Shown here piece by piece: positions 15,599 to 20,400 of a stretch of 20,400 bases of DNA. Positions within the stretch are counted from its first letter, which is position 1, and each line of letters begins with the position of its first letter. The DNA comes from a virus, in the IMG/VR virus record IMGVR_UViG_3300045999_002970, positions 1-20,400 of that record. One strand, given 5' to 3'. Position numbers and translations under genes: made by a program. Under the pieces are notes generated by a model. It had not been told where the DNA came from, ran no database searches, and worked only from the letters and a program-made list of their open reading frames with translations.

Positions 15599-16122
15599 TC
15601 GGCAATTTCCTTGAGTGCCTGAAGGAAGTGCTTCGGCACGAAGGCGGGTACGTCAATCACCCCGCAGATCCGGGCGGGATGACCAACCTCGGCGTCACCA
15701 AGCGAACCTGGGAGGCATTCAAAGGCCGCGAGGTGGACGAATCCACCATGCGCTCCCTGACGGTGGACGATGTCACGCCCCTCTACCGAGACCGCTACTG
15801 GACTGCGGTCAAGGCAGACAGCCTACCCGCTGGCGTTGACCTTGCCGTGTTCGACATCGCCGTCAACTCAGGGCAGAAGCGCGCGGGCATGATCTTGCAG
15901 CAGGCACTCGGGGTGAGCCAGGACGGAGTGATCGGCCCCCGAACGATACAGGCCGCCAGCATTGTCCACGCCAGCGGCCTGATAAACGACATCTGTGACG
16001 CCCGACTGGCCTACCTCAAGTCGCTCCACCATTGGCCTACCTTCGGAAAGGGATGGGGCCGCAGGGTGGAAGCGGTCAGGAAGAAGGCAGTCGAGATGGC
16101 TACTCGACCCGCCACACCCTGA
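15595..16122 (+). CDS. Endolysin, GH108 muramidase with peptidoglycan-binding domain
   Basis: GTG 15595 is chosen as start: it overlaps the holin stop (GTGA), is preceded by AAGGGAG, and gives 175 residues; no ATG stands before the catalytic region. EGGYVNHPADPGGMTNLGVT (16-35) is the glycoside hydrolase 108 signature with E16 as the expected catalytic acid. Residues about 75-90 include DLAVFDIAVNSG, and 95-150 (LGVSQDGVIGPRT) match a peptidoglycan-binding type 3 domain. The enzyme should cleave the glycan backbone of peptidoglycan. No signal peptide or SAR helix is visible, so export depends on the holin. The 3' end overlaps the minus-strand gene by 23 bases. Confidence 0.92.
   Translation: MIGNFLECLKEVLRHEGGYVNHPADPGGMTNLGVTKRTWEAFKGREVDESTMRSLTVDDVTPLYRDRYWTAVKADSLPAGVDLAVFDIAVNSGQKRAGMILQQALGVSQDGVIGPRTIQAASIVHASGLINDICDARLAYLKSLHHWPTFGKGWGRRVEAVRKKAVEMATRPATP
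16090..16108. repeat. Hairpin at the convergent gene ends
   Basis: GTCGAG (16090-16095) and CTCGAC (16103-16108) are perfect inverted arms with a 7-base loop. The TAG stop of the minus-strand gene lies in the loop (16100-16102). No T-run follows on either strand, so it is at best a weak or rho-assisted terminator. Confidence 0.35.
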
Positions 16123-16324
16123 CGCCGGTCCCCCGCACCATCCTCGTCGCAAACTTCCACCCGTGCCGCCTGCCAAAGTTGACTGCTGCGTTGCGGACAT
16201 TGACGCAGGCTCGCTTGTCGCCGGGCGCGAGGAAGCTGTCCCCCGGCTTCATCTTGCTGAACGGGTACTTGGGGCTGCCGACCTGATTGCGGGGGATGGG
16301 TACGGACTCTTCGATCTCGATCAC
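16100..16324 (-). CDS. Small conserved phage protein (74 aa)
   Basis: I choose GTG at 16324 because it overlaps the upstream stop (GTGA) and has GGGAG 6 bases before it; an ATG start at 16387 would overlap the upstream gene by 67 bases. The product has I-E-I-E-E at the start, then KYPFSKMKPGDSF (19-31), KFATR (57-61) and RVWRV (69-73). YPF-x-x-M-x-x-GDSF ... G-x-(R)-V-WR is a pattern I know from many small phage proteins encoded in replication or late clusters, of unknown function. It is the last gene of the minus operon. Confidence 0.72.
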   Translation of the reverse strand: MIEIEESVPIPRNQVGSPKYPFSKMKPGDSFLAPGDKRACVNVRNAAVNFGRRHGWKFATRMVRGTGVRVWRVE

Positions 16325-16644
16325 AGGATTCTCCCTCGCGCATTGGCGCTCATGGTCTGCCAAGCGTCGATCACTCGCTCTCGCCAAGCCCGCTCATGGC
16401 GCAGCTTCTCGGCAACCACGAAGGCATTCCGGCGGTCCTCCAGAGCCTTGCGGTACGCCTCGGATGCGAGTGCCTCTGCCTCCTTGTCGGCGGCGCGGGG
16501 CAACTCGCTCTTGAGGTACTCGGCAGCGTAGACCGTGCGGAGCATGTCGGACGAGAACTCGTAGTCAGCCCTCGCCTCGGCAGCCCGGTCACCGATCCTC
16601 TGGAGTGCGTCCAGATGCCCCTCGATGTCATCCGGCGAGAGCAT
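16321..16644 (-). CDS. Helical hypothetical protein (107 aa)
   Basis: It starts at ATG 16644, overlapping the stop of the preceding gene (ATGA), with GAGG upstream. The product is almost wholly helical and charged (LDALQRIGDRAAEARADYEF, KEAEALASEAYRKALEDRR, LRHERAWRERVIDAW). No Cys or membrane segment. I do not recognise a family. The conserved-looking WRERVIDAWQTM close to the C-terminus may be a packing helix. Both junctions are 4-base overlaps, so translation is likely coupled. Confidence 0.65.
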   Translation of the reverse strand: MLSPDDIEGHLDALQRIGDRAAEARADYEFSSDMLRTVYAAEYLKSELPRAADKEAEALASEAYRKALEDRRNAFVVAEKLRHERAWRERVIDAWQTMSANARGRIL

Positions 16645-17572: not shown

Positions 17573-17913
17573 GATGCACTCCTTTGCGGCTCATGCAGCT
17601 TCTCAAGCCCAGCGGGCCTAGGACCGACTCGGTCAAAGACCAGGCTGTCGAGCTTCTGCATCGCTTGCCTGACGAAATGAGTCATCTCTGCCGAGCCTCC
17701 CATTTCGAACTTTCCGGATTTCATTGCGGCGCCGAGCGTCTCCAGATACTCGCGAGCCGCAACCCGCAACGCATCCAGATCAGCCCGCAGCCGCTCAACC
17801 TCGGCCACCAAGTCCTTTATCTCGTGCTTCAACTCTTTGCTCTTCGCGCGCGATGCTTTGAGCCTCCCTTTGATTTCAGCCTCCTTAACGGCAAGGTCCC
17901 ATTCGTCACTCAT
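17569..17913 (-). CDS. Coiled-coil hypothetical protein (114 aa)
   Basis: ATG 17913 overlaps the ERF-gene stop (ATGA), which fixes this start against longer in-frame options that run into the ERF gene. The product begins MSDEWDLAVKEAEIKG; residues 20-60 form a charged coiled coil (KSKELKHEIKDLVAEVERLR), followed by a helix with EYLETLGAAMKSGKFEMG. The C-terminus is basic. It and the next gene are consecutive coiled-coil proteins downstream of the recombinase; a role as partner is only contextual. Confidence 0.64.
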   Translation of the reverse strand: MSDEWDLAVKEAEIKGRLKASRAKSKELKHEIKDLVAEVERLRADLDALRVAAREYLETLGAAMKSGKFEMGGSAEMTHFVRQAMQKLDSLVFDRVGPRPAGLEKLHEPQRSAS

Positions 17914-18557
17914 GCCCCGCCCTCCCCGTTGTACCCGGCAACCAGCTTGTCCTTGAGTGCCATCAGGGCGGCATAGCCCTGCTCGCTGGCACTCTTCACC
18001 AGCATGATGGCCTCCTTGTTCGCCAGCATGATCTCGGCCAGCGCAGTCGCATCCTGGGCCGCCGACATGGCGTCGTGGATGCGCTTGTATTCGGCGCGGG
18101 GGTCGGGCTTGGACGCCCGAGTGGTCATGTGCTGGACCTGATTGCCGTCTGCGCTGTTCGCGTCGTCGTCCTCCTCGGCGGCGAGGCCAAAGAAGCTGGC
18201 GATCTGATAGCGCCGGGCAAAGGTCATCAGGCTGCCCATCTCCTGCATCTTGACGATGCGGGCGCTGTCGAGCGGCATACAGGTGCTGACCAACCCACCG
18301 CCGCTGTGGAAGAGGCGCAGGCACATGACCATGCCGTCCTCGCGCTTCTCCAGCGTCTGGGTGAAGGCCAGCCCGTTGCTTGCGAGCGGGCCACGGATGC
18401 CGTCGAGGATGCTGTCCAGAGTGGCGTAGGCGAACTTGTACGCCCCACGCTCGCTCTTGACCGACACCTCCCTGTTCTTCGTCGGGTTGCTCATCTTGCC
18501 CTGAGCCGCCGCCAAAGCAGCGTAGAGCAGGGCCTGCTTGTCCAGGTTCTCGTCCAT
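17910..18557 (-). CDS. erf: ERF-family single-strand annealing recombinase
   Basis: I choose ATG 18557, since it has a perfect AAGGAGG six bases upstream and lies one base from the preceding stop; ATG 18584 would overlap the exonuclease gene. The product has 215 residues. YKFAYATLDSILDGIRGPL (40-58), L-F-HSGG (82-87), and QEMGSLMTFARRY (105-117) followed by an acidic EEDDDAN segment are the ERF superfamily core. ERF proteins anneal complementary single strands in phage recombination. The C-terminal ~70 residues are a helical tail. It is paired with the exonuclease encoded just upstream, as in Red/RecET-like modules. Confidence 0.9.
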   Translation of the reverse strand: MDENLDKQALLYAALAAAQGKMSNPTKNREVSVKSERGAYKFAYATLDSILDGIRGPLASNGLAFTQTLEKREDGMVMCLRLFHSGGGLVSTCMPLDSARIVKMQEMGSLMTFARRYQIASFFGLAAEEDDDANSADGNQVQHMTTRASKPDPRAEYKRIHDAMSAAQDATALAEIMLANKEAIMLVKSASEQGYAALMALKDKLVAGYNGEGGA

Positions 18558-18558
18558 G

Positions 18559-19335
18559 TCATCCCTCCTTGATGCGGAGCGCACGACGCTTGTCGCGCGT
18601 CACCGTGATGCCGTGACCAGCAGCGGATCGAACATCCGCAGCCACCAGCTTCTTGATCGTATCAGCGGCCTTGTCGAACTGAGATGCGTAGTTCTTGCAC
18701 ATCAGCCATTCGTGTGCCGCAGATGCCCACTCGTTGTTGCCCGTCATGTCAACGGTTCGTGTTGCCTCGGGTGGGTCGATCTTGACCGCCACGTTGCTCG
18801 GCGGGAGGCGAAGCGTGACGCACTCCCAGAACTCCCTCTCGCGCTCGACCAAGCGCAGCGCATACTCCTCGTTGTACTCGACCTCGACATAGTCCCAGTC
18901 GTTTCCGAAGATGACGGAGAGGAATGCTTTCTTCTTTCCAGCCACCATCATGTTGTGATGCAACTGAGGCTGGTACTTCGGAAGCACATCGGACATCGTC
19001 GCCCGGCCATTCGTGTGCTTGGCCTCGACAATGCCTTCCTCGCAAAGCCCGTCAAGCGTGGCTCGCATGAAACCGACGCTCTCCACCGACACGTTACGCA
19101 TCAGCTTGAGGCCGGTCTTCTTCTCGAACCAGGACAGGTTGAAGTCCTCGGTTGCATTGCCCAGCATGACCTGGAACTTGTCACTCAGGTCTTCCGGTTC
19201 CTTCTGGCCGGTCTTCACCAGCCAGAGGTCGTGGATGCGCTCGGCATCCCCCGACATGATGACGTTGGCATCGGAGCCGCCGATACCCGACCTCCGGGCG
19301 TCGTGCCACTCCTTGGTCTTAGCGATTGGCAACAT
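18559..19335 (-). CDS. YqaJ-family (lambda Exo-like) recombination exonuclease
   Basis: 258 residues from ATG 19335, preceded by AAGGAGG. W10 and RRSGIGGSDA (14-23) form the N-terminal YqaJ motif; LGNATEDF (58-65) carries E63; ATLDG (92-96) holds D95 and VEAKHT (103-108) holds E104 and K106, the D-(x)n-E-x-K catalytic core of the PD-(D/E)XK nucleases; KYQPQLHHNMMV (120-131) follows, as in the family. The length agrees with lambda-type exonucleases (about 226-300). It should resect double-stranded ends 5' to 3' and give 3' single strands for the ERF protein encoded one base downstream. All core residues appear intact. Confidence 0.9.
   Translation of the reverse strand: MLPIAKTKEWHDARRSGIGGSDANVIMSGDAERIHDLWLVKTGQKEPEDLSDKFQVMLGNATEDFNLSWFEKKTGLKLMRNVSVESVGFMRATLDGLCEEGIVEAKHTNGRATMSDVLPKYQPQLHHNMMVAGKKKAFLSVIFGNDWDYVEVEYNEEYALRLVEREREFWECVTLRLPPSNVAVKIDPPEATRTVDMTGNNEWASAAHEWLMCKNYASQFDKAADTIKKLVAADVRSAAGHGITVTRDKRRALRIKEG
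18564..18570 (-). promoter_or_regulatory. RBS that fixes the ERF start
   Basis: AAGGAGG on the minus strand lies six bases before ATG 18557 and inside the last codons of the exonuclease gene. Confidence 0.8.
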
Positions 19336-19387: not shown

Positions 19388-19981
19388 TGCCTGTTTGGCC
19401 GAGATGCACCGGATTCGTGTCTCCAGCCGGTCTCGCCCGCTCAACCAATGTTCTCGGTCGATTGGGATTGCATCTGGCAGGTTCTCGTTCTTCTCCAAGT
19501 GCGCGCGGACTGCCGCCCAGACCTTTTTCTCAAAGCCATCAAACCCCGGAGCCATGCAGTCCCAAAGTTCTGCCTCGGTGCTGTTGAGCCGCCGCGCAGC
19601 TTCATGCAGTTGCTCTGCGTGGACCTCTCTGGTTCGCTGGAGTAGCTGGCGTTTCAGAACCTGCGCCTGCTTGTTCATCAACACCAGCCCAGCAGCCTCC
19701 GTGTCCTGCTTGTACGCTGGCTCGTCGCTTGCAGCCATCGTGCTGTGTTCGTCCAGCCACCGCTGCTGGTTCAGCCAGGTGCTGGCATGGGCGACGTACT
19801 GGATGTCCTTGCCCCTCATCGCCGCCGCGTAGGCGTGGCAGCCCTTGAGGATGTCAGATGGGGCGATCTTCAGCGCCTTGGTCATCTTGTCCCAGCTTTT
19901 GACCGCAGCCCCCCGCCCGACGCGGCGCGGGTACGACCGCCAGAAGTCCTCAAATGAGGGCTCCCCAAGCATATCGCTCAT
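19376..19981 (-). CDS. Phage replication-type protein (helicase-loader/initiator accessory-like)
   Basis: 201 residues from ATG 19981, which overlaps the microprotein stop (ATGA) and has AGGAG eight bases before. FEDFWRSYPRRVGRGAAVKSW (10-30), an I-L-K-G-C-H-A-Y-A helix (44-52) and YVAHASTWLNQQRWLDE (62-78) form the FW-x-x-YPR-K/R-x-G ... P/H-x-x-TWL-x-x-x-RW pattern seen at the C-terminus of phage replication initiators and organisers. Here it stands at the N-terminus of a short protein without a preceding winged helix. The rest (85-201) is helical with a E-L-W-D-C segment. A role in loading replication enzymes is inferred. Confidence 0.66.
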   Translation of the reverse strand: MSDMLGEPSFEDFWRSYPRRVGRGAAVKSWDKMTKALKIAPSDILKGCHAYAAAMRGKDIQYVAHASTWLNQQRWLDEHSTMAASDEPAYKQDTEAAGLVLMNKQAQVLKRQLLQRTREVHAEQLHEAARRLNSTEAELWDCMAPGFDGFEKKVWAAVRAHLEKNENLPDAIPIDREHWLSGRDRLETRIRCISAKQALTG

Positions 19982-20046
19982 GTCAGCACTCCTAGAGCTA
20001 TGAGAATTGCAGCTAGGAACAGCATGAGTAGCAGCGTCTGTTTCAT
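19978..20046 (-). CDS. Hydrophobic 22-residue microprotein
   Basis: ATG 20046 overlaps the upstream stop (ATGA), and its own TGA (19980-19978) overlaps the next start (ATGA). AAGGA stands just before the start. The product begins MKQTLLLMLFLAA and continues with I-L-I-A-L-G-V-L-T: Lys followed by about 18 hydrophobic residues, a single transmembrane helix or an uncleaved signal-anchor. Both 4-base junctions in phase with neighbours make chance unlikely. Function unknown; a small membrane protein affecting the host envelope, or an ORF whose translation merely couples its neighbours, are both possible. Confidence 0.6.
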   Translation of the reverse strand: MKQTLLLMLFLAAILIALGVLT

Positions 20047-20231
20047 TTCCTTCTACTACCTCGGTATGGGTTGTCCTTCAGATAGCCGGGGCTGACGTTG
20101 CCCTCATCCCACGCCTCGGCCTTGCGCTTGCGGATGAGGCGGTCGATGCGCTCGGCAATCCAGATTTCGTCGGGCCAGTTATCAATCGCCAAGCGTGCGA
20201 GACGTTGTCCATCGGTCTTGCGGCTGGTCAT
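20043..20231 (-). CDS. Small basic hypothetical protein, paralogue of the gene before it (62 aa)
   Basis: ATG 20231 overlaps the upstream stop (ATGA) and is preferred over ATG 20285, which lies inside the upstream gene. Residues 7-10 DGQR, N-W near 17-18, then ERIDRLIRKRKAEAW (26-40) and a basic C-terminus GSRRK. The D-G-x-R-x-A ... N-W ... IDR-(L/I)-IRKR-x-x-EAW series is shared with the partial gene immediately upstream, showing tandem duplication. The R-K-R helix may bind nucleic acid; no family recognised. Confidence 0.66.
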   Translation of the reverse strand: MTSRKTDGQRLARLAIDNWPDEIWIAERIDRLIRKRKAEAWDEGNVSPGYLKDNPYRGSRRK

Positions 20232-20400
20232 GGCTTGGCCTCCATTTCGGCAATGACCTCGCGGAAGTTGTATCCGGCCACCCACGCCTCGCGCTGCCTC
20301 TTCCTAATGATCCGGTCGATTTCGTGGGCCGTCCCCGCAACGTGAGCGCCGCTTATCGCCCAGTTTTCGGCCATGCGCTGCGCGATGCGCTCGCCGTCTG
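20228..20400 (-). CDS. Small hypothetical protein, 5' end outside window (paralogue of the next gene)
   Basis: The frame is open from the window edge, and 56 residues are visible, ending at TGA 20230-20228. They include DGERIAQRMAENWAIS, then HEIDRIIRKRQREAWVAGYN and E-M-E-A-K-P. The match with the downstream gene in DG-(E/Q)-R, NW, IDR-(I/L)-IRKR and EAW is direct. No stop interrupts it before 20400, so the start lies outside. Function unknown. Confidence 0.6.
   Translation of the reverse strand, partial: DGERIAQRMAENWAISGAHVAGTAHEIDRIIRKRQREAWVAGYNFREVIAEMEAKP

Follow-up and report, generated by a model that had tools for sequence, protein, structure and literature searches.

The question raised by this locus is whether a 22-codon ORF, hereafter the micro-ORF, which overlaps both of its neighbors, encodes a phage membrane protein, only helps to start the translation of the replication gene that follows it, or is open by chance. 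The stretch of DNA analyzed, referred to as the window, comprises 20,400 bases, positions 1–20,400 of the IMG/VR virus record IMGVR_UViG_3300045999_002970. In our judgment the micro-ORF is rather likely to be a genuine accessory phage gene for a single-span membrane microprotein, and its hydrophobicity, together with its sequence in related loci, supports the view that it is real, translated and membrane-spanning. If made, its product would rank among the very short membrane proteins of phages, and the micro-ORF would be a concrete case of a gene likely skipped by gene callers with the usual length limits.

The micro-ORF and its gene neighborhood

An earlier note on this DNA had described a 22-residue ORF in which a lysine is followed by hydrophobic residues; its coordinates, length and sequence proved exact (Table 1). 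For the upstream neighbor no match was found among PHROG families (E up to 0.001) or in Pfam (E up to 0.1). The downstream neighbor belongs to the same operon as the genes of an exonuclease and an Erf-like protein, the ATG start of the latter being our choice. Judged by this gene content, the operon would be of the early type, and the tail and lysis genes of the window are oriented against it. A DNA similarity search with the window gave nothing among named phages. Three ATGA junctions follow one another on the minus strand, at 20228–20231, 20043–20046 and 19978–19981. In addition, the 62-aa ORF (20043–20231) and a 48-aa ORF (20228–20374), both on the minus strand, have a motif in common (IDRLIRKRKAEAWDEG/IDRIIRKRQREAWVAG) and are apparent tandem relatives.

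Table 1. Features of the replication/recombination operon of the window and ORFs probably homologous to the micro-ORF. Coordinates are those of the window unless a locus is named.
Feature	Coordinates	Strand	Remarks
Micro-ORF, hydrophobic, 22 aa, MKQTLLLMLFLAAILIALGVLT	19978..20046	-	ATG start, TGA stop
Upstream neighbor, 62 aa	20043..20231	-	Joined by ATGA 20228-20231 to the preceding ORF
Downstream neighbor, replication initiation/primosomal-type protein, 201 aa	19376..19981	-	PHROG 270, E 2e-22
RecE/YqaJ-type exonuclease	18559..19335	-	Same operon; PHROG 434 and Pfam YqaJ
Erf-like ssDNA annealing protein	17910..18557	-	Same operon; PHROG 2324 and Pfam ERF
ATGA, stop of upstream gene/start of micro-ORF	20043..20046	-	Absent in L001 (10-nt gap instead)
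ATGA, stop of micro-ORF/start of replication gene	19978..19981	-	Kept in L001
AAGGA, 1 nt before micro-ORF ATG	20048..20052	-	Suboptimal as Shine-Dalgarno
AGGAG in last micro-ORF codons	19989..19993	-	Likely Shine-Dalgarno of replication gene, 7 nt from ATG
Probable distant homolog, MREVHWLMLVMSALLIVLGLFM	L079:396-464		22 codons, ATG start
Probable distant homolog, MREVHWLMLVMSALLIALGLFM	L081:897-965		22 codons, ATG start; identical stretch in L085

The AAGGA with which the note had credited the micro-ORF is indeed present but lies too close to the ATG for a good Shine-Dalgarno sequence, and the best 16S-tail pairing upstream of the micro-ORF is weak (-7.3 kcal/mol; 34 of the 657 ATGs of the window are as strong). 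The end of the micro-ORF would double as the Shine-Dalgarno sequence and the ATGA of the replication gene, the AGGAG having a pairing of -6.8 kcal/mol and its counterpart in the close relative described below being AGGGG.

Hydrophobicity of the predicted peptide

The predicted peptide contains 19 uncharged residues (T4–T22), with a GRAVY of 2.11 and a summed value of -4.2 on an insertion scale. When the interior of the micro-ORF was submitted to 20,000 dinucleotide shuffles, the frame remained open in 25% of cases, never with a hydrophobicity as high. Among the 529 ORFs of 15–40 aa in the window, counted in six frames and with nested starts, this GRAVY was reached by two, both of them nested forms of the micro-ORF. 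Random 63-nt segments of the minus strand (n = 200,000, the micro-ORF's own segments included) were open in 64% of cases, and open and as hydrophobic in 0.03%. Frequent hydrophobicity arising simply from AT-rich DNA is described for enterobacterial intergenic micro-ORFs in PMC11188072; the micro-ORF studied here has 32 G+C among its 69 bases, in comparison with 62% for the window, and this composition is preserved by the shuffles. The hydrophobicity of the micro-ORF is beyond chance.

With a length under about 50 aa and one hydrophobic stretch of bilayer length, the peptide has the features of a small single-span membrane protein. It would be an inner-membrane peptide crossing the bilayer once, with a short polar head (Lys2 and Gln3) before the uncharged 19-residue stretch that begins at position 4. 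By the positive-inside rule its topology is probably N-in, as Lys2 is the sole charged side chain. It also resembles an uncleaved signal sequence. We infer that the micro-ORF is translated early from the replication/recombination operon and that its product is inserted into the membrane with this topology.

A close genotype with a different ribosome site

Two IMG/VR contigs, L001 and L002, show no difference in the 10,603 bases retrieved and represent one close genotype. Their micro-ORF (L001:4936–5004) differs from that of the window in three of the 22 codons, two of them synonymously and the third by Ala17Gly, and 21 of the 22 residues of the peptide are identical. For the proteins encoded downstream, identity with the window is 81% (replication protein), 89% (exonuclease) and 96% (Erf protein); over its first 81 codons the replication gene encodes the same amino acids in both genotypes. 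The DNA alignment ends at position 20073 of the window, within the final codons (NPYR) of the upstream gene, and therefore the micro-ORF and the replication gene are on the same side of a mosaic breakpoint.

Beyond this point the upstream gene of L001 is different from that of the window, and 10 nt separate its stop from the ATG of the micro-ORF. There, GAGGAGGA replaces the ATGA, with a 16S-tail pairing of -12.0 kcal/mol, against -12.1 kcal/mol for the exonuclease gene of the same locus. By the scoring used, this site ranks 1 to 3 among 412 ATGs, and 5 to 7 among 1,010 start codons when GTG and TTG are added. In the reporter tests presented in PMC10666635, coupling drops steeply with distance and is almost gone at about 20 nt, and 10 nt is the outermost spacing counted as coupled. 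A simple reading is that related genotypes start the same ORF differently: in the window, translation would come mainly from termination-reinitiation at the upstream ATGA and, in L001/L002, from the micro-ORF's own strong Shine-Dalgarno sequence.

A broken ORF beside intact neighbors, which the earlier note had named as the observation that would speak against a microprotein, was not found in L001/L002, the only closely homologous stretch obtained. Nevertheless, the micro-ORF differs by just 4 of its 69 nt and the adjoining 231 nt, with 13 differences, are as conserved, so that the substitutions are too few to infer purifying selection. In simulations with four random substitutions, the frame stayed open in 93% of the trials, and at most one residue was altered in 10%.

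A probable distant homolog at another position

A scan with five exonucleases gave 119 loci, of which the best 80 were taken. Twelve of these 80 (L077–L088, several of them near-duplicates) have the replication-exonuclease-Erf order of the window, with replication proteins 34–51% identical to that of the window. In none of the 12 does a micro-ORF of this sequence immediately precede the replication gene. However, a peptide search (tblastn) over 185 loci disclosed 22-codon ORFs in L079, L081 and L085 (Table 1) that are probably homologous to the micro-ORF. The L081 peptide is identical to that of the window at 10 of 22 residues, aligned ungapped and end to end, and M1, L7, M8, L9, A13, L15, I16, L18 and G19 are invariant across all four peptides. 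The polar head is here formed by Arg2 and Glu3.

The tblastn E-value (0.085 over 185 loci) is weak when taken alone. The ungapped score against the window peptide is 47 for the L081 form and 43 for the L079 form, the next unrelated sequence among 1,087 distinct 22-codon ORFs reaching 24. A score of 47 was attained in 1 of 200,000 permutations of residues 2–22 and in 32 of 200,000 when only residues 7–22 were permuted. Since these tests were made after the match had been seen, the homology is called probable.

Like the micro-ORF of the window, the distant homolog has 22 codons, an ATG start and a basic second residue, and is accompanied by the same gene order. Unlike it, the homolog is separated from the replication gene downstream by 1.8 or 1.3 kb, and its junctions are different: 22 nt are shared with the ORF upstream, a gap of 15 or 10 nt precedes the next gene, and an ATGA is found on neither side. 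Its ATG is preceded, at a distance of 4 nt, by a GGAGG (-8.7 kcal/mol). The L079 and L081 forms differ in one codon, non-synonymously (Val17Ala), with zero synonymous changes, and this single difference means that the pair adds little on selection. Residue 17 is the sole difference in each of the two close peptide pairs, being Ala/Gly in the window and L001 and Val/Ala in L079 and L081.

The peptide thus seems to be kept while its place and its junctions vary. As the homolog retains the length and not the place, the peptide rather than the junctions is the thing to test. The earlier note had presented the micro-ORF as locked between two ATGA junctions: both are exact in the window, but the upstream one is missing in L001 and neither exists in the distant homolog, and on the sequences compared the pair is peculiar to the window genotype. 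The check suggested in the note, conservation of the hydrophobic pattern in relatives, was positive in L001/L002 and probably so in L079 and L081/L085.

Further searches for homologs

When records were searched with the distant form, matches were obtained in 3 of 15; a second search, with the window peptide, gave nothing beyond the window itself and L001/L002. As it missed the distant form, empty answers of this second search are weak. A tblastn search against phages with the window peptide and the distant homolog gave no match, although the low-complexity filter may have hidden some. Neither the window peptide nor the distant homologs matched any PHROG at E up to 10, a 22-aa query having little power, and Pfam gave no match for the window peptide at E up to 0.1. 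In the literature search nothing was recognized as the peptide or its family.

The first peptide pattern scan recovered the L001 and L002 contigs only, and the second these contigs plus two matches having the nine-residue core alone in common. The third gave 33 loci, 31 of which are N-termini of frames of at least 41 codons, by eye mostly signal peptides; secreted proteins thus have N-termini similar to the window peptide.

Searches with the replication gene led to distantly related sequences, and no similar upstream micro-ORF was found in 10 viral loci (L008–L017) or in 14 genome loci (L025–L038); other short hydrophobic ORFs precede this gene in L009, L014 and L025. Of 197 genomes related to one of Bradyrhizobium, 44 contained exonuclease matches. 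In 20 of these exonuclease loci, taken with flanks of about 1.5 kb, there was no replication gene, and the sole hydrophobic ORF upstream on the sense strand had 15 aa (L059, loose cut). The homologs found are one close genotype and two related genotypes of the probable distant homolog.

Alternative explanations and possible role of the peptide

The main rival to a membrane microprotein, which we consider unlikely, is that translation of the micro-ORF delivers ribosomes to the start of the replication gene, or opens the RNA there, the peptide itself being idle. A stop/start overlap with that gene is found in both close genotypes, and the AGGAG of the replication gene, lying in the last micro-ORF codons, is predicted to be mostly paired within a hairpin in the window (probability of being unpaired, 0.10–0.12). 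Nevertheless, this closure occurs in the window only and is ordinary among synonymous recodings, of which 81 and 95 in 300 were as low. The pairing of the L001 site is weaker (0.35–0.36 unpaired; 240 and 58 of 300 recodings as low), and the folding of the whole region is close to that of shuffles (z of 0.46 and 0.03). These tests with shuffles, synonymous recodings and L001 led us to drop the idea that a hairpin over the start of the replication gene is conserved.

Coupling would also fit the observation that an ORF of at least 87 codons ends within 2 nt of, or overlaps, the replication start in 11 of the 12 loci L077–L088 (near-duplicates included), a doubtful 61-codon ORF ending at this start in L077. 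Such tight packing is thus general at the replication start and not special to the micro-ORF. Moreover, a pure coupler does not need an extreme transmembrane composition, and the probable distant homolog sits elsewhere, with other junctions. This homolog makes a coupling role, as well as a chance origin, less likely and the microprotein likelier.

Quite unlikely is a peptide of the type I toxin kind, or otherwise inhibitory to the host, that depolarizes or disturbs the inner membrane. In length and composition the micro-ORF product is like the small single-span toxic peptides, DinQ and type I toxins, described in PMC3567139 and PMC8309996. However, there is no PHROG or Pfam family match, and the likeness is one of length and hydrophobicity alone.

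It is very unlikely that the peptide tethers the phage replication complex to the membrane by pairing with the initiator encoded by the next, coupled gene. The 3' ATGA leading to the replication gene is common to both close genotypes, and complex subunits are enriched among gene pairs spaced between an 8-nt overlap and 10 nt apart in Escherichia coli and Haloferax, according to PMC10666635. Against a tether, the related replication genes of L077–L088 (34–51% identity) have other immediate neighbors, and the probable homolog lies 1.3–1.8 kb away from the replication gene. Finally, a chance open frame in the 61-bp intergenic gap, which the shortness of the ORF and the proportion of open random segments would allow, is highly improbable given the hydrophobic pattern, the strong ribosome site of L001 and the probable distant homolog.

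The membrane microprotein proposed by the earlier note is consequently the preferred reading, its GRAVY exceeding that of the shuffles, the ORF being intact behind a canonical Shine-Dalgarno sequence in L001 and a 22-residue homolog probably existing. The note's further suggestion, that peptides of this sort may modify host membrane enzymes or exclude other phages, gained no support from the analysis and was not contradicted by it. By analogy, one might guess that the peptide binds a host membrane protein or perturbs the membrane early in infection. A more specific version is possible, if doubtful: a family of peptides, always 22 residues long, in which a basic head is combined with an LML....(I/L)LI.LG core and which changes its place within the early operons of this phage group. 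Acting on a host membrane component, the peptide itself would be kept irrespective of the junctions.

Comparison with known small proteins

Predicted small phage genes were reportedly catalogued by Fremin et al. in 2022 (Cell Rep.), and the micro-ORF is like them in being a short ORF in a phage contig. Its product is also like YohP, MgtR and DinQ in having a length little beyond one membrane span. YohP, of 27 aa, is inserted post-translationally through SRP, as stated in PMC7549839. Unlike YohP, the micro-ORF peptide is shorter, phage-borne and encoded in a replication/recombination operon. Single-span proteins of this tiny size, like small genes in phages, are a known kind, of which the micro-ORF is probably a real further member.

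Other short hydrophobic ORFs near exonuclease genes

Several other short hydrophobic ORFs were seen in the loci collected. A very hydrophobic one of 25 aa (L086:2036–2113 and L088:2037–2114) has its start in an ATGA overlap and lies two ORFs upstream of the replication gene. The small gene preceding it ends in GVRVWRIK, similar to GVRVWRVE in the ORF at 16103–16387 of the window. Another, of 29 aa (L020:3739–3828 and L089:2740–2829), has TAATG and ATGA junctions and scattered changes between the contigs, and a third, of 32 aa, is found near the exonuclease gene in L023/L024; the exonucleases accompanying the 29- and 32-aa ORFs are of other types. As the micro-ORF does, these ORFs have a single hydrophobic stretch, overlap a neighbor and precede the exonuclease by no more than about 1 kb. 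However, they have no evident sequence similarity to it, and the insertion scores of the 29- and 32-aa peptides are weaker.

We considered, and rejected, the idea that tiny hydrophobic ORFs generally accumulate upstream of the exonuclease, as their number on the sense strand did not clearly exceed that on the antisense strand. With a strict cut, two sense and two antisense ORFs were counted in 40 clusters (84 loci), 0.1 being expected from resampled sequence. A looser cut, picked after this first result, gave four sense against two antisense in the 40 clusters; the peptides of L020 and L023/L024 fall short of both cuts.

In L023 (4001–4808) and L024 (1530–2310), the YqaJ-type exonuclease is encoded in two ORFs in different frames, split between the LDG and EAKH motifs, a start of the second ORF overlapping the end of the first. 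As the junction sequences of the two loci differ, an assembly error is less likely.
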